Assembly (NCBI RefSeq): GCF_008087625.1
Contig: NZ_CP042997.1
Span: 2,480,001-2,544,000, forward strand
DNA length: 64,000 nt
Reading direction: 5' to 3'
Source: Aquisphaera giovannonii
GTDB taxonomy: Bacteria; Planctomycetota; Planctomycetia; Isosphaerales; Isosphaeraceae
The position numbers and the translations under genes are program-made. The notes under the pieces are model-generated. The model was not told the DNA's origin, searched no databases, and saw nothing but the letters and a program-made list of their open reading frames with translations. Below, in pieces: positions 1,656 through 11,434 of the stretch (its first letter is position 1; each line of letters starts with the position of its first letter).

Positions 1656-3317
1656 TCAAGACTCGGCGCGTGGGATCCACGTACGCAGGGCGGAGGGCTG
1701 TTCCCGGGCGGATCGGGGGATCTCCACTCTCACGGCCACGTGCGCGATCTCCATTCGCTCCAGGTCGCGGAGGTAGACGTGGCCGCGATACACCATGTAC
1801 AGAAGCCGCTCGTCCGGGATCATAACGAGTGTGTCGAGCACGGGCTCGACGTCCTCCCGCCGCGTCGGGACGTCTTCAACGCCCGCCGACCGGCCCTCGC
1901 GGAGCCTGGCTTCCAGCCACTCGTCGGGCGGCTGCTCCCATCGAGTCACCACGATGCGGGGCAGGAGCCCGGGGAGCCGGAATTCGAAGTCCGAGTCGGG
2001 CGACATGTTGCGGAGCTCGACCTCCTCATCCCCGCGGAGATAGCCCGGCACCTGGAGGTCGGGGTGGGCCCCGTTGAAGAAGCCGTAGTCGAAGTCCGCC
2101 GGCAGGCCGAGCACGCGCTCTCGGCCCTCGGGATTCGGGCTGGGAGTGCCGGCCAGTTGCAGCCGGGGTGACCAGCCGCGGCCGTAGAAGCCGAACCCCG
2201 CCGGCCTCGGGTGCGAGTCCCATCCGCGGATCGGGTCCGCCGGGTCCTCGACGTTGGGCAGCAGCTTGCCGTGCAGGGATCCGGGGGACTTCTTGCCGGC
2301 GAAGCCCCGGCCGGCCAGGTTGGCCGAGGAATAGAGGGCGGCGGCCTCGTCGATGCCGCCGAATGCCCGGTCGTAGACCAGCTCCATCCGGGAGAAGGGC
2401 TCGGGCTTGCTGATCTCCGGGATCATCGCCAGCCGCGTCGGGAACCACCAGGAGCGGTTGCCGTAGACGTGGATCGATTTCTCCAGGCGCCCCACCCGCA
2501 GCCCGACCTCGAGCGGCGTCTCGGGATCCTTGCCGCTGGGGAAGTAGGCGGCACCGGCGACCACGACGTCGGCCCTCGGCTTGAACGGCACGACGTCGGT
2601 CTCGAACCGGACGGTCCGCAGGGATTCGTCCTCCCACGGGACGTCGCAGGTGAAGACCGGGAGGGCGGCCGGGGCGACGCCGGCGACCGCGCCGTGCTTC
2701 GTCGGCATCGTGCAGGTGATCTTGACGATCACGGTCAGCCTCGGACGCCCTTCCGGCCCCTCCCACATCATCGTATGGATCGCAACTCGGTCCGCCGCCA
2801 GGACGTCGCCGGCGAGTGGCCTGGGTGCCGGTGCGGCGGGTTCCGGGCGGGGGGCGTTCGCCGGGGGCTCTTCCCCTCCCTCGCCTGACGCCGCCTGGGG
2901 ATCCGGCGCCGGCGGTGCGGGCTGCGGGGACGGAGACTCCTGGGACCGAATCGATTCGAAGGCAACGGGCGAGAGCCGCCAGCTCGACGATTTCGGCCGG
3001 GCCGGGGCGGGGGCGGTGCCTTCGACGACGACGCTGAACGAGGTGCGGCCCGCCTGGATGAGGTCGCCGTCGCCGACCGCGCAGGGGGCCGCGATCCGCT
3101 TCCTGTTCAGGAAGGTCCCGTTGCTGCTGCCGAGGTCTCGCACGCGAAAGCCGTCGCCCGCCCACTCGATCGCGAAATGGAGGCGGGAGAGCAGCAGGTC
3201 GTCCGGGAGCGAGACGTCCGCCTCCTCCGAACGGCCCCATTTCACCGTGCGGCCCTGCTCGATCGCGACCTTCCGGGAGCGGCCGTCGGGGCCGTCGAAG
3301 ACGATCCTCAGCCGCAT
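1656..3317 (-). CDS. FHA domain-DUF2169 fusion protein, secretion-spike associated
   Basis: A 553-residue protein. Residues 1-100 form a forkhead-associated (phosphothreonine-binding) domain with the conserved GRS (28-30), SRLH (44-47) and SSNGT (64-68) residues. A Pro/Ala-rich linker (about 105-180) leads into a DUF2169 domain running nearly to the C-terminus. DUF2169 genes in proteobacteria commonly sit beside VgrG, PAAR and pentapeptide genes and are viewed as T6SS accessory or adaptor proteins; that role here is inferred from family and context. The ATG at 3317 was chosen because it starts the FHA fold directly and overlaps the pentapeptide gene's stop by 10 nt, suggesting translational coupling. 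An upstream in-frame extension exists but lies inside the neighbouring gene and adds no recognisable domain. It is the last gene of the VgrG operon. The FHA domain implies phosphorylation-dependent docking, but no kinase gene is in this operon. Confidence 0.88.
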   Translation of the reverse strand: MRLRIVFDGPDGRSRKVAIEQGRTVKWGRSEEADVSLPDDLLLSRLHFAIEWAGDGFRVRDLGSSNGTFLNRKRIAAPCAVGDGDLIQAGRTSFSVVVEGTAPAPARPKSSSWRLSPVAFESIRSQESPSPQPAPPAPDPQAASGEGGEEPPANAPRPEPAAPAPRPLAGDVLAADRVAIHTMMWEGPEGRPRLTVIVKITCTMPTKHGAVAGVAPAALPVFTCDVPWEDESLRTVRFETDVVPFKPRADVVVAGAAYFPSGKDPETPLEVGLRVGRLEKSIHVYGNRSWWFPTRLAMIPEISKPEPFSRMELVYDRAFGGIDEAAALYSSANLAGRGFAGKKSPGSLHGKLLPNVEDPADPIRGWDSHPRPAGFGFYGRGWSPRLQLAGTPSPNPEGRERVLGLPADFDYGFFNGAHPDLQVPGYLRGDEEVELRNMSPDSDFEFRLPGLLPRIVVTRWEQPPDEWLEARLREGRSAGVEDVPTRREDVEPVLDTLVMIPDERLLYMVYRGHVYLRDLERMEIAHVAVRVEIPRSAREQPSALRTWIPRAES

Positions 3318-4276
3318 GACGGCACCTCGCCCGCGGCCGCCGCGGCCTTCAACAGGGCGGCCCTCTCCTCCGCCGTCAGGGGCGATCGATAGAGCGGCCT
3401 CGGCCGGATGGCCGGCGGCTTCACGCCCAGGGGCCCGAAGGCGACCTGGACCCCCTCGGGGAGACGGACCCCTTCCAGTCGACACTCCGAATGGTCAAAG
3501 GACGCGAGCGTGGCCCAGTACAGGTCGACCCGACGGAGGTCGCAGCCAGTCGCCCGCGCCCCCGTCAGGTCCACGCCGACGAGGTTGGCGTCCGCCAGGT
3601 CGCAACGATCCAGCGTGGCACCTCGGAGGTCGGCGAGCTCGAAGACACCGCGGGCGGCCCGCAGCTCCACGAGCCTCGCCCGGGCCAGGGTCGCCCGTTC
3701 GAAGCTGGCGTCCCCGGCGCGGGCCCGGGTGAAGTCCGACTCGGAGAAATCACCCAGGCGGCAGCACGACCCGCCCAGGTCCGCTCGCGCGAAGATTGCG
3801 GCGGAGGCCCCGACGCCGGACAGCTCGGCGCCGGCCAGGGTCGCGTCGGTCAGGTCGGCCGCCACGAGGCAGGCCCCGGAGAGGTTCGCCCCGGACAGGT
3901 TCGTGCCGACGAGCCGGGCCTTCGCGAGGTCGGCGCCGACGAGGTCGGCGCCCTGGAGGTCCGCCCCGGTCAGGTCCGCGCCGCGGAGGTCGGCGCCCCG
4001 GAGGCAGGCCGACGCGAGCAAGGCCCGGCGGATCACCGCGCCGCGGAGGACGGCGGCGGCCAGGTCGCATTCGCCTAGCCTTGCCTCCTCCAGGTTCGCC
4101 GCGGACAGGTCCGCCCCTCGGAGGACGGAGCCCGTGAGCCGTGCGCCGCCGAGATCGGCCCCGGACAGCCGTGCCCCGGCCAGGGCCGACCCCTCGAGCG
4201 TGACCCCGCGGAGCCGCGCCCCGGGGACGAGGTCGGCCTGATCGGGGACGTGCGGTGTCGCTCCGGGATCGTTCAT
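3308..4276 (-). CDS. Pentapeptide-repeat protein
   Basis: A 322-residue protein made almost wholly of pentapeptide repeats of the A(D/N)LxG type (for example GADLRGADLTGADLQGADL), predicted to fold as a right-handed quadrilateral beta-helix. It has no signal peptide or membrane segment. The repeat array covers roughly residues 15-260 and is followed by a short non-repeat tail containing RSPLTAEERAALL. Its start overlaps the preceding coiled-coil gene by the ATGA quartet (4273-4276), and its stop overlaps the FHA-DUF2169 gene by 10 nt. Pentapeptide and DUF2169 modules are often fused or adjacent in type VI secretion effector clusters, so a structural or adaptor role with the spike is likely. 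The molecular function itself cannot be read from the sequence. Confidence 0.9.
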   Translation of the reverse strand: MNDPGATPHVPDQADLVPGARLRGVTLEGSALAGARLSGADLGGARLTGSVLRGADLSAANLEEARLGECDLAAAVLRGAVIRRALLASACLRGADLRGADLTGADLQGADLVGADLAKARLVGTNLSGANLSGACLVAADLTDATLAGAELSGVGASAAIFARADLGGSCCRLGDFSESDFTRARAGDASFERATLARARLVELRAARGVFELADLRGATLDRCDLADANLVGVDLTGARATGCDLRRVDLYWATLASFDHSECRLEGVRLPEGVQVAFGPLGVKPPAIRPRPLYRSPLTAEERAALLKAAAAAGEVPSCG

Positions 4277-4581
4277 CGGGCCTCCGGATCATCGGGCGGT
4301 GCGGGGTCGTCGTCCCAGGGCCCGGGGACGTGCAGCTCCTTCAGCCTCTGCTCGACGGCCTTCTTGCGCCGGAAGGCCTGCTGCTGGCGTTGCCCGAGTT
4401 CTCGCTGCTGCTCCTGAAGGATTGCGATCTCGCGGCCCCGGGCGAGGAACTCGGGGTCGGTGGGGCTCTCGCGCGCGATCTCCTGGAGCCGTCGCGACAC
4501 CTCCGACATCTGGCGGAACAGCCCCAGGACGCCGAGGCGGATCTCCTCGATCTCGGCCAGCAGCGATTCCGACTCCGACAT
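4273..4581 (-). CDS. Small coiled-coil protein between RHS effector and pentapeptide gene
   Basis: A 102-residue protein starting at the ATG at 4579-4581. It is almost entirely helical and heptad-like (residues about 5-85, rich in Glu, Gln, Arg and Leu) with an acidic, proline-rich tail (PGPWDDDPAPPDD). No signal peptide and no family that I recognise. It begins 26 nt after the RHS stop and overlaps the pentapeptide start by 4 nt, so it is clearly an operon member. The slot directly downstream of an RHS C-terminal domain usually holds the immunity gene, which makes it a candidate antitoxin. A chaperone or adaptor for loading the RHS protein is equally possible given the coiled coil. A longer upstream frame would run into the RHS coding region and is not needed. 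Confidence 0.75.
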   Translation of the reverse strand: MSESESLLAEIEEIRLGVLGLFRQMSEVSRRLQEIARESPTDPEFLARGREIAILQEQQRELGQRQQQAFRRKKAVEQRLKELHVPGPWDDDPAPPDDPEAR

Positions 4582-4607: not shown

Positions 4608-7600
4608 TCAGTGAACGGGCAGCCAGAGGCCGCTGCCGGCATCCTGGCGGAACATCCGGATCCCCTCCATGAGCCGCGACTGCTCCGGGTTGGGCGGGGG
4701 CACGGGGGGCGTGTAGGTGGCGAGGTGGTTGGCATCCGCCTCCACCTGCGCCGCCCGCGCCGGGTCGCTCGTGTTGGAGGGATGGCAGCCGTTGGCCCAC
4801 CAGTCGTTCTGAGCGTTCCTCAGGTGGTCCTGGAGCTGCCAGTACTGTTCGTAGTGCGACCCGATGGTGTTGGCCTGTCCGGAGCCGCCGCCCGCGGGAT
4901 CCCCGGGATTACGCTGGAGCGGCATCCAGCCGGTGTTGGCGTTGAATTCGGCGATCCGCTGCTGGAGGCCCTTGTGGTTGGGGACCTGCGCGCCGGGGTG
5001 CGGCGGGTTGACCGGGGCCGGAGGATGGTGCTCGGTATTGATCGCGTTGTCCATCCTCTGGAATGCGTCCTCGCACTCCTGCCGGAAGCAGGCAAGGCCC
5101 AGCGGGTCGATCGCGTTCACCGGGTCGTCCGCCGCATAGGCGTACGCGTTCGACCCGGGGAAGAAGGCGATCGGGTCCGGCGAGGTGTAACGGCGGAGGG
5201 CCGGGTCGTAGTCGCGGTGCCGGTTCCAGGCCAGGCCGGTGTCGGGGTCGAAATACTGCCCCGGGAAGAGCCGGCCGCCGACCGCGGGCCGATCGAAGCC
5301 GGCCGGGGCGATCTCCTCCAGCACCGAACCGTCCTGGTCCACGAGGGCCTGCGGGGAGCCGATCGGGTCCGTGATGTACCGCAGCGAGACCCCGTCGCGC
5401 GCCCGGGTCACCGGCTGGAACCCGCCGGGTGTATGCGCGTACGTCACGACGCCGTCCGGGCCGGCCTCGGCGACCAGCCTGTCTCCCCACCAGAGATACC
5501 GCGTCGTCTTGCCGTCACGCTCCGCGGCGATGCGACGGTGGAACGCGTCGTAGCGGAACTCGGTCGCGGTGCCGTCCGGGTGGGTGACCCGCGTCAGCAG
5601 GTTTTCGTAGTCGCGATGGAACTCGGTGCGCCCGCCGTCCCGCTCGCGCCAGGCCAGGTTGCCGTTCGCGTCGTAGCCGCAGCGGAGCGAACCGGCCATC
5701 GTGAGTCGGTCGAGGTGGCCATGCTCATATCCGCCGCCGTCGTGCGACCTCACGGGGTTGTCCCCCGCGTCGTAGGCGTAGTCTTCCACGACCTCGCCGT
5801 CGCGCTCCACCGACTGCAGCCGGCCGGCCCGATCGTATCGATAGCTCGTGGCCGTGCCGGCCCGGAGGTCTGCCACCGTCGCCACCCGGCCGCCCTCGTC
5901 GCGTCGATACTCGCGATCGTGGAGGACCGCGTCCCGCGGGCCGACCGCGCGGCGATGCTGGAGGAGGCCGGTCGGCCCGTACTCGGATCGCTCGACGACC
6001 CCGGACGAATCGCTCGACTCGACCGTCGCGCCGCGATCCTCGTGCCGGATCCGGATGGCCCTCCCCGCGGCGTCGGTGAGCTCCGCGAGCCGGCCCCTCG
6101 GGTCGTAGTAGTAAGCGGCGATGCGGGCCTCGTCGAAGTGAAGCTCGCGGCGACGGCCCTCCCCATCGAAGCCGTGAGAGAGCGTGCCGGCTGCCTGGGC
6201 CTCCTTCACCGCCCGCCCGTCGGCGTCATACTCGATCTCCACGACGCTCCACGGGCTGGCCGCGGCGATCAGCCGGCCCGCCGCGTCGTAGGTGTAGGTC
6301 GTCTCCCGGCCGTCGGGATACCGCCTCGCCGTGAGCCTCCGCATGGCGTCGTACTCGAGCGTGAAGCGGACGCCGCTGGGATCGCGGGCGGCCACGACGT
6401 AGCCCTGGGCGTCGAACTCGAAGGCCTCGACGCGCCCGTCGGGATAGGTCATCCGATGCGGCCGGCCGAGGCGATCGTGGTCGATCGTCGCGCGTTCCCC
6501 CCGCGGCCCCGTCGCGGCGATCAGTCGCTGCTCGGAGTCGTACTCGAAGCGGGAGACCCGGCCGGCGGAGTCCGTCACGGAGAGCAGCAGGCCGAACCGA
6601 TCGTAGGTCCGCTGCTCGCGGTAGCCCATCGGGCCGAGCGCCTCGATCGGCCGGCCGGCCTCGTCCCGGCGGATCCGGACGACGCCGCCGCCCGGCAGCC
6701 GGATCGCGACCAGACGCCCGAGCGCGTCGTGGGACCACGTCGTGGTCCGCCCGGCCTCGTCCGCGTACCTCACGAGCCTCCCGAAATCGTCCACCTCGCA
6801 CGCGGCGAACGTGCCGAGCTGGTCCGAGTAAGTGATCGCCCGCCCGTCCCGCTCCCGCCGGATTGCGATCACCCGGCCAGCCGGCTCGATCACCCGCTCC
6901 AGCCGACCCCGGGCATCATACGAATGGGACCATCGGCGACCCATCGGCGACCCGAGTGCGACCTGATTGCCCCGCTCGTCATACTCGGCGACCCACGCGT
7001 TGCCCTCCGGGTCCTCGGAGCGGACCGGCAGGTTGAGCTCGTTGAACTGAGTGACCGTCGCGGCCCCCGCGGCGTCGAGCGTGGTGAGCGACCGGGTCGC
7101 CGGGTCGTAGCTTTGCAGGGAGACCGGGCCGAGCTCCTCGTCCTCCGAGAACAGGAGGCTGTTGTCCGGGGCGAAGAAGGTCCGCTTGACCTGCCCGAGT
7201 GCGTCCACCTTCTCGCGACAGAGGTCCGCCTCGTTGAAACGGTGCAGCGTCCCCCATCCCCGCGAGTCCACCAGCAGGGTCGTCCTCCGCGCCGGGTCGT
7301 GGACGAGGCCCCGGTAGCGTACGTCGCCGTCGAGCCACGTCGCGACGGCCCGGCGGTCGCGATCGTACGCGTAGTAGCGGCTGCCGCCGGATGGATTGGT
7401 CTCGCGGACGACGAGGTGATCGGCGTACTCGTACTCGTACCGGGCCCCCGACGCGTCCCACGCCGAGACGAGGTCCTGCCTGGCGTCGTATTCGTACCGG
7501 GCCAGGATCATCGGGTCGCGATCCGCGGTGCGGAGCTCGACCCGGGTCAGGAGGCCGCGTTCGTAACTCAGGGCGAACCGGCGGCCTCGGCCGTCTGTCG

Positions 7601-8042
7601 CGCGGACCAGGTGGCCGTCCTCGTCGTGGTCGAACGACGCCGCATTGCCGTTGAGGTCGCTGATCCGGCGCAGGAGCCACGGGTCGTCCGGACGCGGCGG
7701 GGCCGCGAAGACGAGCCGTCGCCGGCCGGCGGTGGTGACGATCAGGGTCTCGGCCGTCAGCAGCACCCGCATCGCGCCGAGGGTCTCGCGATGGAACCAG
7801 AGCTCGCGGTCCCGCTCGAGCGGCCCGTGCCGCGAGGTCTCCTCGCCGGCCTCGAACAGGATGGCCGTGTCCCCTTCGAGCCTGGCCCAGAGCTCGAGGT
7901 CGGACGACCACCCCCAGCCCAGCGGCCCGAGCCGGCCCGACGCCGAGGAGTAGCTCCGGAGCAGCGCGAACGGCATCTCGCCGGAGAGGTGGAACTCCCG
8001 CGCGCTGAGTGTGACGACCCCCGTCGCGACGTTCACGCACAT
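4608..8042 (-). CDS. RHS/YD-repeat polymorphic effector protein
   Basis: A 1144-residue RHS protein. It begins MCVNVATGVVTLSAREF, as in DUF6531-type N-termini, continues through dozens of YD repeats (YDxxGRL, YDAxGN) and ends its core with the RHS-associated signature around YTSPDPIAFFPG and the DPLGLA boundary. The remaining 160 residues (nt 4608-5090) are a variable C-terminus, the position where RHS proteins carry a toxin. That tail has HH, HPG and DHL...WW segments and a Pro-rich stretch, but I recognise no toxin family. The core should form a hollow beta-shell that encloses the C-terminal domain. It starts 25 nt after the PAAR gene, consistent with delivery on a VgrG-PAAR tip. Function as an antibacterial or contact-dependent toxin is inferred from family and context. 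Confidence 0.93.
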   Translation of the reverse strand: MCVNVATGVVTLSAREFHLSGEMPFALLRSYSSASGRLGPLGWGWSSDLELWARLEGDTAILFEAGEETSRHGPLERDRELWFHRETLGAMRVLLTAETLIVTTAGRRRLVFAAPPRPDDPWLLRRISDLNGNAASFDHDEDGHLVRATDGRGRRFALSYERGLLTRVELRTADRDPMILARYEYDARQDLVSAWDASGARYEYEYADHLVVRETNPSGGSRYYAYDRDRRAVATWLDGDVRYRGLVHDPARRTTLLVDSRGWGTLHRFNEADLCREKVDALGQVKRTFFAPDNSLLFSEDEELGPVSLQSYDPATRSLTTLDAAGAATVTQFNELNLPVRSEDPEGNAWVAEYDERGNQVALGSPMGRRWSHSYDARGRLERVIEPAGRVIAIRRERDGRAITYSDQLGTFAACEVDDFGRLVRYADEAGRTTTWSHDALGRLVAIRLPGGGVVRIRRDEAGRPIEALGPMGYREQRTYDRFGLLLSVTDSAGRVSRFEYDSEQRLIAATGPRGERATIDHDRLGRPHRMTYPDGRVEAFEFDAQGYVVAARDPSGVRFTLEYDAMRRLTARRYPDGRETTYTYDAAGRLIAAASPWSVVEIEYDADGRAVKEAQAAGTLSHGFDGEGRRRELHFDEARIAAYYYDPRGRLAELTDAAGRAIRIRHEDRGATVESSDSSGVVERSEYGPTGLLQHRRAVGPRDAVLHDREYRRDEGGRVATVADLRAGTATSYRYDRAGRLQSVERDGEVVEDYAYDAGDNPVRSHDGGGYEHGHLDRLTMAGSLRCGYDANGNLAWRERDGGRTEFHRDYENLLTRVTHPDGTATEFRYDAFHRRIAAERDGKTTRYLWWGDRLVAEAGPDGVVTYAHTPGGFQPVTRARDGVSLRYITDPIGSPQALVDQDGSVLEEIAPAGFDRPAVGGRLFPGQYFDPDTGLAWNRHRDYDPALRRYTSPDPIAFFPGSNAYAYAADDPVNAIDPLGLACFRQECEDAFQRMDNAINTEHHPPAPVNPPHPGAQVPNHKGLQQRIAEFNANTGWMPLQRNPGDPAGGGSGQANTIGSHYEQYWQLQDHLRNAQNDWWANGCHPSNTSDPARAAQVEADANHLATYTPPVPPPNPEQSRLMEGIRMFRQDAGSGLWLPVH

Positions 8043-8067: not shown

Positions 8068-8454
8068 TCACGTGCACGTCGAGCAGGCCCTTCCTCCGCC
8101 GCCTCCCCCGCCGCCCATGCCGATCAGGACGGTGAATTCGCCGACGACGATGTTGTTGGGCGGCGGGAGCGGGATCAGCGCTCCGGGCTCCATGACGATG
8201 TCGCCCACGCGTGCGGCCGGCTTGCCGCCAATCATGCAGATCCCCGGGGCGCCGTCCGGCACCGGGGTCGTCACGCCCGGCCCGTGCGGCGTGCCCGAGC
8301 ACGCCGGCGGGGGCGCATTGGGGATCGGGCAGGTGTGCTGATCGCCGATCCTCCAGGCCGGCTTGCCGCCGATCAACACCGTGGGGCAGGGGGCGCCGAG
8401 CAGCGGGGAGCCGTGCTGCGTCGTGTCTCCCAGCCTGGCCGCTGGCTTTCCCAT
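8068..8454 (-). CDS. PAAR-domain spike-tip protein
   Basis: A 128-residue PAAR protein. It starts MGKPAARLGDTTQHG and contains two PAAR-like halves (VLIGGKPAWRIGDQHTC and GICMIGGKPAARVGD), with His and Cys residues suited to binding the single metal at the tip of the cone. The tail is a glycine run ending ACSTCT. The ATG at 8454 is preceded by GAGAGG at proper spacing; a TTG five codons upstream is less likely. PAAR proteins cap VgrG trimers in type VI secretion and related injection systems and often link effectors to the spike. Its position between vgrG and the RHS gene fits that role. Confidence 0.93.
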   Translation of the reverse strand: MGKPAARLGDTTQHGSPLLGAPCPTVLIGGKPAWRIGDQHTCPIPNAPPPACSGTPHGPGVTTPVPDGAPGICMIGGKPAARVGDIVMEPGALIPLPPPNNIVVGEFTVLIGMGGGGGGGGRACSTCT

Positions 8455-8487: not shown

Positions 8488-8715
8488 TCAGTCCCCTGTC
8501 GTCTCCACCACCCCGATCAGGCGGAACATGCCGCCGCGTGCCAGGCCCGGGGCGTCCCTCGGGTCGACGAGTTGAACCCGGTCGGTCCCGGAGAAGCGGT
8601 AGGCCCGGCCCGTCGCCGGCCCCGCGACCACGACCGGCGGCCCCCCCTCATAGCGAATCCTCGCCTGTTGGCTCCGGGTGATCGCCCTCGTCGCGACCTG
8701 GCCGCAGCATTTCAT
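8488..8715 (-). CDS. Small conserved-looking protein in the VgrG operon, function unknown
   Basis: A 75-residue protein beginning MKCCGQ. The ATG at 8713-8715 has GAGGAG 7 nt upstream, while a GTG five codons earlier is weaker. The body looks like a small beta-barrel or SH3-like fold (RIRYEGGPPVVVAGPATGR, then YRFSG and VQLVDPRDAPGL). I associate that pattern with short phage-morphogenesis proteins, but I cannot confirm a family. It overlaps the 3' end of the DUF1360 gene by 68 nt in a different frame and ends 33 nt before the PAAR gene. The strong SD and lack of another start within the frame support expression. Confidence 0.6.
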   Translation of the reverse strand: MKCCGQVATRAITRSQQARIRYEGGPPVVVAGPATGRAYRFSGTDRVQLVDPRDAPGLARGGMFRLIGVVETTGD

Positions 8716-9037
8716 CGGGCTTCTCCTCACGCCACTCGAAGGGCGGCTTGAGCCACTCGTCGATCAACGCCACCACGCCCGCCAGTGCCAGCCAGGCCAC
8801 CAGGACCTCGGGGACGCTCGCCCCCACGAAGAACGCGAAGGGGAGGGAGGTCCACAGGCCGACGCACTTCACGCACTCGAGCAGCCCCCGCCCCGGCCCC
8901 CGATCCAGCCGCCGCCGCAGGCGATCCAGGACGCCCGCCGGCCCGGACTCTCGCACCGCCAGGAACGCCAGCCGCCACGACGCGAGGCCCGCCAGGACGA
9001 AGCGGAAGGCCGGATGGTACGGATCGGGGGGCTCCAT
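8648..9037 (-). CDS. DUF1360-like small membrane protein
   Basis: A 129-residue protein. An N-terminal hydrophobic segment (FVLAGLASWRLAFLAV) is followed by the signature CVKCVGLWTSLPFAFFVG and a third hydrophobic stretch (VLVAWLALAGVVALI), then a charged cytoplasmic-type tail. The CxxCxGxW hallmark and segment order match DUF1360, a family known from phages and from Bacillus and actinobacterial genomes without an assigned function. It starts 3 nt after the vgrG stop, so it is translated from the same message. Why a membrane protein sits between a spike and its tip is unclear: it might anchor the apparatus at the membrane, act as a holin-like component, or be a cargo. These are inferences. 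Confidence 0.75.
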   Translation of the reverse strand: MEPPDPYHPAFRFVLAGLASWRLAFLAVRESGPAGVLDRLRRRLDRGPGRGLLECVKCVGLWTSLPFAFFVGASVPEVLVAWLALAGVVALIDEWLKPPFEWREEKPDEMLRPGRDEGDHPEPTGEDSL

Positions 9038-9040
9038 CGG

Positions 9041-11434
9041 TCAGTTGATCTTCACCAGCGAGCCCTTGATCGTGTTGATGCCGGAGGCCTCCGCGTTGAC
9101 CATGGCCCCCTTCACGAGGTTCTTGGCGGAGGCGTCCGACGTGATGTTCGGCGCCTTCTCCTCGATCTTGGTCGAGCCCTCGATCGTGATGCTCGTGCCC
9201 TTGATCTCGATCGTGCCCCCGCTCTTGAGCGTGATGCTCGCCGAGCCGGTCTTGAGGATGATCTCGTCCCCGGCCTCGACGGTCAGCTTGTTCTTGACGT
9301 TGAGGTTGTCGTCCTTGCCGACCGAGGTGTCGCGCTTCCCGCCGATCGTGTACGAGCCGTCGCTGCCCACGGTGACGGTCTGCGTCTTCCCCACCGTCTG
9401 CGTGTGCTTGCCGCCGAACGACTCCGTCTGGCCACCCCCGACGGTGACGGCCTGTGCCGCCCCCACCGTGATCGTCTGCGCCGCCCCCACCGTCACGGCG
9501 CGGAGGCCGCCCACGGTGATCTCCTGCGCCGCGCCCACGTTGATGGACTCGTTCACCCCGACCATCCTCGTGCGGGTCAGGGTCACGGTGATCGACTCGT
9601 TCGAGCCGACGGTCTCGGTCCGATTCGCGCCGATGGCGATCGTCTCGTTGGCGCCCACCTTCTCGACGCGGTTGACGCCGATGGTGATCGTCTCGTTGTT
9701 GTCCACGGTCTCGGTGCGGTCGTGCTTGACGTGGGTCGTCTCGTCGTGGTCGATCGTCTTGGAGCGATCGTGGCCGACGGTGTGCGACTCGTCATTCTCG
9801 ACGGAGATCGACTGGTCCTTCTCGGCGTGGATGGAGAGCAGCTCGGAGCCCTTCTTGTCCTCCAGGCGGATCTCGTTGAAGTTGGCGCCGGAGCCCCCCT
9901 TGGAGCTCCGCGACTTGATGCCGCTCTGCGTCATGTTGGCCGGCAGGGCGTAGGGGGGCATCTGGTCGGCGTTGTAGACGCTGCCGACGATGATCGGCCG
10001 GTCCGGATCCCCCTCCTCGAAGGCGACGACGACCTCCTGGCCGACCCGGGGGATGTGAACCATGCCCCACTGCTTGCCGGCCCAGGGCGTCGCCACGCGG
10101 ATCCAGCACGAGCTGTCGGCGTCGCGCTTGCCGTGGCGGTCCCAGGGGAACTGGACCTTCACCCGGCCGTACTTGTCGGTGAAGATCTCGTCCCCGGCGT
10201 TCCCCACCACCACGGCCGTCTGCGTCCCCTCGACCGTGGGCCTCGGCGTCGTCCGCTCCGGGCGGAAGGGGAGGGCGGCCGGGATGCACTGGAAGGAGTT
10301 CTCGTAGGACGGCGGCGCGTCGCTCGCGGAGACGTACGCGTCCCCCATCGACGCGGCGTGGGAGACGCCCGTGATCACGTACGCGCCATCCCCGTTGAAG
10401 TGGCGCGTGAGCGAGAACTTGTAGCCGGCGATGAGCTGCGGGCAGGTGCTCTTCCCGCGGATCAGCAGCGCCCGGGCCGCCTCCTGCTGCATGCGGATGC
10501 CCGCCGTGCGGCCGTTGTCCTCGAAGATGTTCTGGACGTCGCCGGCGCGGTCGCCGCCGCCGGGCGAGATGCCGTCGAACCGCTGGGCGTAGGCGCCGGG
10601 GTAGTCGTACAGCTCCAGCGGATCGTTCGCGGGGAGCTTGAGCTTGTGGGCCACCCGCCCTGCCTGCACGGAGTCGACCGTGGACTTGACGGCCTCCAGG
10701 TTCTGCCCGGGCAGCTCGAAGCAATGGTCCCAGAGAGTGACTTTTGCGGAACGCAGCTCCTGGGTCTTCTCCCAGGAGAAGATGCGATCCTCCTCGCGCA
10801 GGCCGCCCCGCACCTCCTCGAAGATGAGGGCCGGGTCGCCGGGGACGTCGTCGTGGCTCTGGGGGGTGTCGCCGACGACCATCTTGTGGCCGCCCGGCTC
10901 GTGCTGGAAGAAGTAGTAGATGCCTTCCTCCTCCATCAGCCGGCTCGCGAACGCGAAGTCGCTCTCGCGGTACTGGACGCAGTAGTCCCTCGCCTTGTAC
11001 GTCCCCTGGAGCTGGTACGCCGCGTCCAGGCCGGTCAGCACCTGCTTGAGGATCTCCGGCACCGTCATCTGCTGGAAGATGCGGCTCTGAGTCCGTCGCG
11101 TCAGCAGCCAGGCCCTGGGGACGAGCTCCGCGTAGTAGCAGGTGAGGAATCCCGGCCCGAGCCCCGAAGGCACGCGACGACCCTGGCTGAATCGGCTCAA
11201 GATGCCGTTGATGTATCGCTCATCCCCATCCGCCGTCAGGAAGGAGACGGTGGCCGACTGGCCGAGGACCTTCTCGAAGGGAATTTCCGTCTCCGACTCG
11301 GCCAGGAGCTCCAACCGGAACGAGAACAGCCCGGATAGAGATTCCGTACCCGAGACGGCCTGCAAGAGCAGCACGTCCGGGCCGAGGGGGGTCGTCACGG
11401 CGATCGGGCGCTTGACCTGGGTATACACGGGCAT
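9041..11434 (-). CDS. VgrG/TssI-type secretion spike protein
   Basis: A 797-residue VgrG. The N-terminal gp27-like (phage GPD) domain starts at about residue 15 (LQAVSGTESLSGLFSF). The gp5 OB-fold segment lies around residues 390-500 and contains DKYGRVKVQFPWDRHGK and WIRVATPWAGKQWG. A C-terminal needle of short valine/glycine repeats follows, with a terminal region (ITLKSGGTIEIKG) typical of DUF2345-like ends. The ATG at 11434 (MPVYTQVKRPIAVTTPLG) follows a GGGGAC Shine-Dalgarno; an in-frame upstream start adds only 26 unconserved residues. It is the first gene of a minus-strand operon that continues through the PAAR, RHS and DUF2169 genes. VgrG trimers form the piercing spike of type VI or related contractile injection systems. 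No TssB/C, TssK or ClpV gene is present in this window. Confidence 0.95.
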   Translation of the reverse strand: MPVYTQVKRPIAVTTPLGPDVLLLQAVSGTESLSGLFSFRLELLAESETEIPFEKVLGQSATVSFLTADGDERYINGILSRFSQGRRVPSGLGPGFLTCYYAELVPRAWLLTRRTQSRIFQQMTVPEILKQVLTGLDAAYQLQGTYKARDYCVQYRESDFAFASRLMEEEGIYYFFQHEPGGHKMVVGDTPQSHDDVPGDPALIFEEVRGGLREEDRIFSWEKTQELRSAKVTLWDHCFELPGQNLEAVKSTVDSVQAGRVAHKLKLPANDPLELYDYPGAYAQRFDGISPGGGDRAGDVQNIFEDNGRTAGIRMQQEAARALLIRGKSTCPQLIAGYKFSLTRHFNGDGAYVITGVSHAASMGDAYVSASDAPPSYENSFQCIPAALPFRPERTTPRPTVEGTQTAVVVGNAGDEIFTDKYGRVKVQFPWDRHGKRDADSSCWIRVATPWAGKQWGMVHIPRVGQEVVVAFEEGDPDRPIIVGSVYNADQMPPYALPANMTQSGIKSRSSKGGSGANFNEIRLEDKKGSELLSIHAEKDQSISVENDESHTVGHDRSKTIDHDETTHVKHDRTETVDNNETITIGVNRVEKVGANETIAIGANRTETVGSNESITVTLTRTRMVGVNESINVGAAQEITVGGLRAVTVGAAQTITVGAAQAVTVGGGQTESFGGKHTQTVGKTQTVTVGSDGSYTIGGKRDTSVGKDDNLNVKNKLTVEAGDEIILKTGSASITLKSGGTIEIKGTSITIEGSTKIEEKAPNITSDASAKNLVKGAMVNAEASGINTIKGSLVKIN
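9300..9815 (-). repeat. Tandem beta-needle repeats in the VgrG C-terminus
   Basis: Within vgrG, residues about 540-711 carry some fifteen degenerate units of 8-11 residues ending in a TV/IG-type step (for example VGANETIAIGANRTETVG). At the DNA level this gives a run of related gac/ggt-rich units. The periodicity fits a triple-stranded beta-helix needle, as in phage gp5. The first third of the array is charged (HD and DNN units) and the last third is Gly/Ala/Gln rich. Confidence 0.8.

Follow-up and report, generated by a model that had tools for sequence, protein, structure and literature searches.

What are two small, overlapping genes doing between vgrG and the PAAR gene of a T6SS island, and where did they come from? 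This question is raised by a locus of Aquisphaera giovannonii, a planctomycete with a 10.5-Mb genome (main contig 10,370,956 bp). A first-pass annotation of the window, the whole stretch of 64,000 nucleotides analysed here, had called the pair phage-type and proposed a role in spike assembly, membrane docking or effector delivery.

Results

An orphan vgrG island of the Tvp type

The eight genes of the island lie on the minus strand in the order vgrG, 129-residue membrane protein, 75-residue protein, PAAR, RHS, coiled-coil-like ORF, pentapeptide-repeat protein and FHA-DUF2169 protein (Table 1). The mechanical ORF of vgrG runs from 11512, and its likely start is the ATG (MPVYTQ) at 11434. A Pfam/TIGR profile scan of this ORF showed no C-terminal effector extension on VgrG. 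The PAAR protein is 98% identical to that of Aquisphaera insulae and 79% identical to that of G404, a genome of another Isosphaeraceae genus. A DUF2169 TvpA protein, PAAR and VgrG stand together in one locus, the combination that defines a Tvp-type T6SS accessory island, and the order is the same in A. insulae. No DUF3540 protein (the TvpC of Tvp class III) was found among the eight island ORFs scanned, where a pentapeptide protein is present, and no separate DUF6484 TvpC was seen in the island. The sole T6SS sheath gene found in the genome, tssC (PF05943), lies about 0.69 Mb away, which makes this an orphan vgrG island in a genome with a T6SS sheath.

Two further island genes deserve mention in their own right. 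The fusion of DUF2169 to FHA may represent a phospho-regulated TvpA variant. The conserved coiled-coil-like protein downstream of RHS, for which profile scans gave no confident family match, is a candidate RHS partner.

Table 1. Features of the vgrG island, with positions in the window
Feature	Position	Strand	Evidence
vgrG (TssI)	9041..11434	-	TIGR03361 E 6e-173; Pfam Phage_GPD, Gp5_trimer_C
vgrG stop TGA (9041-9043) and 3-nt gap before the DUF1360-like start	9038..9043	-	TGACCGATG, identical in A. insulae
DUF1360/phrog_781-like small membrane protein, 129 aa, CVKCVGLW	8648..9037	-	ORF; phrog_781 E 2.3e-5
Shine-Dalgarno GAGGAG and spacer before the 75-aa gene	8716..8728	-	GTGAGGAGAAGCCCG-ATG; GAGGAG kept in A. 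insulae
75-aa protein, MKCCG...RIRYEGGPPVVVAGPATGRAYRF...	8488..8715	-	Conserved start, Shine-Dalgarno and sequence in A. insulae
PAAR spike-tip protein (MGKPAARLGD...)	8068..8454	-	PF05488 E 3.6e-19
RHS repeat protein	4608..8042	-	RHS_repeat E 6e-73; Rhs_assc_core
Small coiled-coil-like ORF after RHS (MSESESLLAEI...)	4273..4581	-	60% identical in A. insulae
Pentapeptide-repeat protein, TvpB-like by content	3308..4276	-	PF00805 E 2e-55
FHA-DUF2169 protein (TvpA-like PAAR chaperone domain fused to FHA)	1656..3317	-	DUF2169 E 3e-77, FHA E 1.3e-14

Both small genes are real and under selection

The two ORFs occupy positions 8488-9037, as first annotated. The reported 3-nt gap to vgrG was also confirmed: the vgrG stop ends at 9041, the ATG of the membrane protein gene is at 9037, and the gap is the same in A. 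insulae. The 68-nt overlap of the two ORFs (8648-8715) is correct provided that the 75-residue gene begins at the ATG at 8715. Its mechanical ORF reaches five codons further upstream, to a GTG; we take the ATG as the start because the GAGGAG Shine-Dalgarno sequence and the M-x-C-C-G start are kept in both Aquisphaera species.

A. insulae, about 0.6 synonymous changes per site distant, has the same eight-gene block with the same order, overlap and start signals. Its membrane protein and 75-residue protein are 71% and 70% identical to those of A. giovannonii, respectively. Outside the overlap, changes at codon positions 1, 2 and 3 number 19, 16 and 39 in the membrane protein gene and 7, 3 and 15 in the 75-residue gene. 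The dN/dS values are about 0.26 for the membrane protein and about 0.22 for the 75-residue protein (outside the overlap), compared with 0.24 for vgrG and 0.04 for PAAR. Apart from the M-x-C-C-G start, the overlap shows no constraint in either frame. Both small genes are thus real and under selection. Spurious or decaying ORFs, a reading with nothing beyond small size to recommend it, are contradicted by the third-position pattern, the selection and the conservation, and are highly improbable. The 3-nt junction makes it likely that the membrane protein gene is translationally coupled to vgrG.

The membrane protein is a divergent DUF1360 relative

The CxxCxGxW motif noted at first pass is present in both species, as CVKCVGLW in A. 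giovannonii and CVKCAGAW in A. insulae. Three helices had also been claimed; hydrophobic stretches near residues 10-28 and 52-98 fit that layout, and hydropathy is no proof of the number three. The proposed DUF1360 membership holds by transitivity rather than by direct Pfam score, which is 12.4 bits (PF07098, E 0.17) against a curated cut-off of 21 bits. Three links carry it. The phrog_781 profile matches residues 20-109 of the window protein at the E-value in Table 1, compared with 0.017 for the A. insulae orthologue and 6e-18 to 4e-43 for phage members. A homologue in a distant planctomycete (G020), 29-33% identical, passes the Pfam cut-off at 29.8 bits. The third link is L317, an environmental phage to which a pattern scan for a DCFYCL motif gave the lead; the test is the comparison itself: its 96-residue protein is 38% identical to the window protein over 82 residues (E 5e-16, hhalign 97%). 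This homologue lies downstream of the terminase large subunit gene (terL) and upstream of a likely tape-measure gene. The L317 protein was needed as a bridge, as direct tblastn of the window protein against phages and plasmids returned nothing. Among 50 unselected viral records searched for DUF1360, none scored over the cut-off.

In the resulting alignment (A5), R22, L26, C55, C58 and W62 are invariant, and by hydropathy the Arg, the Leu and the CxxCxxxW lie within hydrophobic helices. Sequence comparison therefore supports the assignment of the window membrane protein as a divergent DUF1360/phrog_781 member. AlphaFold models of the two small proteins were too poor for use (pLDDT 54 and 52, the latter for the 75-residue protein), and Foldseek searches gave no significant fold match.

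Three other DUF1360-type loci were observed along the way. At L306 (G020:C183, reverse strand, 3795-4327), a DUF1360 gene shares an ATGA overlap with a short ORF containing SCCGRG, which resembles the layout in the window. At L311 (G100:C26, reverse strand, 1033-1785), a single ORF joins KKKCC to a CIVCVGTW membrane segment, a putative fusion of the two partners. At G374:C2:30958-33876, two DUF1360-like CxYCFGHW genes lie about 2.7 kb apart.

Phage relatives stand beside the portal gene

A search from one annotated phage protein, reached via L317, returned 262 phage records with a match. In all 14 annotated actinophages opened, the phrog_781 gene precedes the portal gene. This set is not a random one, being picked by similarity to one query; its members have actinobacterial hosts and belong to several phage groups. 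In 12 of the 14 (A3Wally, Cece, Big4, AWGoat, Tank, SilentRX, Sour, Athena, phiAsp2, Atuin, Evaa and Talia1610), this gene is followed immediately by the annotated portal. The unannotated ORF next to it in NTR1 is the portal (phrog_776, E 9e-189), and in ReqiPine5 one small gene intervenes. The upstream neighbour varies between terminase, RuvC resolvase and small genes, which leaves the portal as the constant partner. PHROGs lists phrog_781 as of unknown function. In the actinophages (loci L325-L338) these proteins are likely head-assembly factors, and their phage role would be portal assembly. Direct portal adjacency in nearly every actinophage opened makes a head-assembly role directly testable.

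A possible neck-tail relative of the 75-residue protein

The 75-residue protein starts with an N-terminal Cys-Cys tag (MKCCG) and probably holds a short beta domain, as far as its structural model can suggest. This low-confidence model is the sole support for the 'beta-rich' label of the first-pass annotation. Family libraries contained no match, and profile searches with the two-sequence alignment returned chance matches only. Scanning 2.9 million viral contigs for a motif turned up a single convincing relative, encoded by an environmental phage of 74 kb (L156), where it is flanked by a tail terminator gene and a putative tail-tube gene. The two proteins share an IRYxG...GPxTGRxYRF domain, in a neck-tail context there and between vgrG and PAAR here. 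Their hhalign probability of 94.6, with 48% identity over 42 columns, is optimistic, because the motif itself was used to find the relative. The same record holds a membrane-type ORF with CxxCxGxW between portal and protease/capsid-type genes, for which neither Pfam nor PHROGs gave a match. The relative among head-closure or tail proteins that had been expected at first pass is weakly supported by one environmental phage, and the structure and fold search gave none. The 75-residue protein tentatively resembles a protein encoded among phage neck-tail genes.

IMG/VR scans with alignments A1, A2 and A4 gave no confirmed relative, and scans for CCG plus GPxTG and for GPxTGK gave noise. Three candidates were discarded: L291 was a chance motif match; the similarity of AWGoat 105, a short Cys-containing phage protein, was tested and not supported; and for the CCG protein that follows DUF1360 in L317, the CCGQ stretch alone aligned.

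The pair appears to be a gain of the Aquisphaera lineage

The related island of G404 carries vgrG, PAAR, RHS, pentapeptide and DUF2169 genes, with vgrG and PAAR 17 nt apart and nothing between them. Since vgrG there joins PAAR directly, the pair in Aquisphaera looks inserted. No convincing copy of either small gene was found in the other Isosphaeraceae genomes searched, within a survey of 392 genomes of the phylum and an 84,980-species scan sensitive to close relatives only. G393, the third member of the genus group, has a fragmented genome in which only a different vgrG locus is visible. The simplest view is that the Aquisphaera lineage gained the pair. A search for flanking repeats as signs of an insertion gave nothing but one weak 17-nt pair, and the cassette does not stand out as foreign by its GC content.

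The first-pass annotation had described the pair as interrupting the usual vgrG-PAAR adjacency. It does interrupt it, but that adjacency is not strictly usual in Isosphaeraceae. A DUF6931-like protein directly follows vgrG in 11 of the 24 loci examined (12 counting L069, a borderline case whose open frame overlaps the vgrG end), about half of the Isosphaeraceae vgrG loci (L064-L083). L068, the second vgrG locus of A. giovannonii itself, is among the carriers.

Adjacency of a DUF1360-like gene to vgrG is not unique to A. giovannonii, as A. insulae has the same block; it was found in these two Aquisphaera species only. A general DUF1360-VgrG association did not emerge: as far as tested, no vgrG-adjacent copy was found outside Aquisphaera, and the phage members adjoin the portal. 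In the literature searched, no DUF1360 gene between vgrG and PAAR is described, and DUF1360 is named in a single paper, on mycobacterial genome comparison.

Discussion

The phage-type ancestry of the pair and its tight linkage to vgrG are well supported. As the DUF1360 family is kept beside the portal in phages, a bacterial injection machine appears to have incorporated a gene for phage assembly. We tentatively propose, at somewhat less than even confidence, that the pair is a cassette of phage-type structural and assembly genes, taken up by the Aquisphaera lineage to serve one orphan VgrG-PAAR-RHS spike as accessory proteins. We infer from this a part in assembling the spike or in docking it at the membrane; the effector-delivery role suggested at first pass found no specific support. 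Through translational coupling, the membrane protein would be made in step with VgrG and could keep the nascent VgrG-PAAR spike bound to the inner membrane until the RHS, pentapeptide and DUF2169 proteins have been loaded. The 75-residue protein would be its soluble partner or a clamp on the spike. A phage function would in this way have been carried over into a spike operon. That the membrane protein, portal-linked in phages and vgrG-linked here, holds a nascent machine part at the membrane is possible, at somewhat less than even odds. The broader idea that DUF1360 proteins are general membrane-bound nucleation factors of phage-like machines, serving the portal in phages and the VgrG-PAAR spike in Aquisphaera with a small phage-type partner, is speculative and rather unlikely.

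Hitchhiking and immunity are the main rivals of a spike cassette. The pair could consist of phage-derived genes kept for a non-secretion purpose, such as phage exclusion or a membrane function, with operon expression as their sole link to the spike. The family is widespread in phages and absent from the other vgrG loci examined, and the G404 island does without the pair, all of which fits such hitchhiking. Retention of the exact 3-nt vgrG junction and the nested overlap across about 0.6 synonymous changes per site argues against it, and we consider it unlikely, though a serious contender. T6SS islands often hold small membrane immunity proteins, and the position inside a vgrG island would suit a membrane protein that guards against a membrane-acting island toxin, or a 75-residue protein that is itself cargo. 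Against this stand a VgrG whose end matches those of its relatives and has no toxin domain, an RHS C-terminus that is well conserved rather than polymorphic between the two Aquisphaera species, and the normal placement of immunity genes after the effector, not after vgrG. An effector-immunity or immunity pair is accordingly quite improbable.

A third alternative is suggested by the cysteines. The CxxC...W is invariant across phage and bacterial members, and the overlapping partner starts with Cys-Cys-Gly in both Aquisphaera species, so the membrane protein could be a redox or metal protein that works through its cysteines and matures the Cys-rich N-terminal end of the 75-residue protein, which then modifies the spike. 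Profile scans gave no catalytic family match, and the CCG link at other loci (L306, L317) is a mere three-residue motif; we regard this possibility as more doubtful still. If a spike cassette is the right reading, DUF1360 in a T6SS spike operon would exemplify a phage assembly factor taken over by a bacterial machine of related kind. It would also offer a second system for testing DUF1360 function.

Comparison with known systems

It is established that several accessory proteins, DUF2169 and pentapeptide proteins among them, take part in building VgrG-PAAR: PAAR is held by DUF2169 proteins, and pentapeptide proteins and further partners serve as templates for the assembly (PMC13373197). The Tvp complexes of Serratia, Pseudomonas and Agrobacterium (PMC13373197) share with the Aquisphaera island the presence of vgrG, PAAR, DUF2169 and pentapeptide genes in one island. 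The Aquisphaera island differs in that DUF2169 is fused to FHA and that RHS and the DUF1360 pair are added. In Isosphaeraceae, DUF6931 occupies the same slot between vgrG and PAAR as the pair, whereas it is of another family and about 200 residues long (PF22011).

The DUF1360/PHROG 781 phage proteins, such as gp65 of Microbacterium phage Cece and gp11 of Mycobacterium phage Athena, have the same size and hydrophobic layout as the window protein and the same invariant Arg, Leu and C-x2-C-x3-W, and both lie directly beside a structural gene. The phage members precede the portal, whereas the window protein follows vgrG, which makes it a relative by sequence, not by context. It also has a longer C-terminal tail, which carries the start of another gene. 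In phage T4, the portal is nucleated on the inner membrane, and initiation depends on gp40 (PMC9958956). Docking of the Aquisphaera spike would resemble the support that gp40, a membrane-associated portal chaperone, gives to membrane-bound portal assembly; by analogy, the two may share the principle of a membrane-bound support for nucleating assembly.
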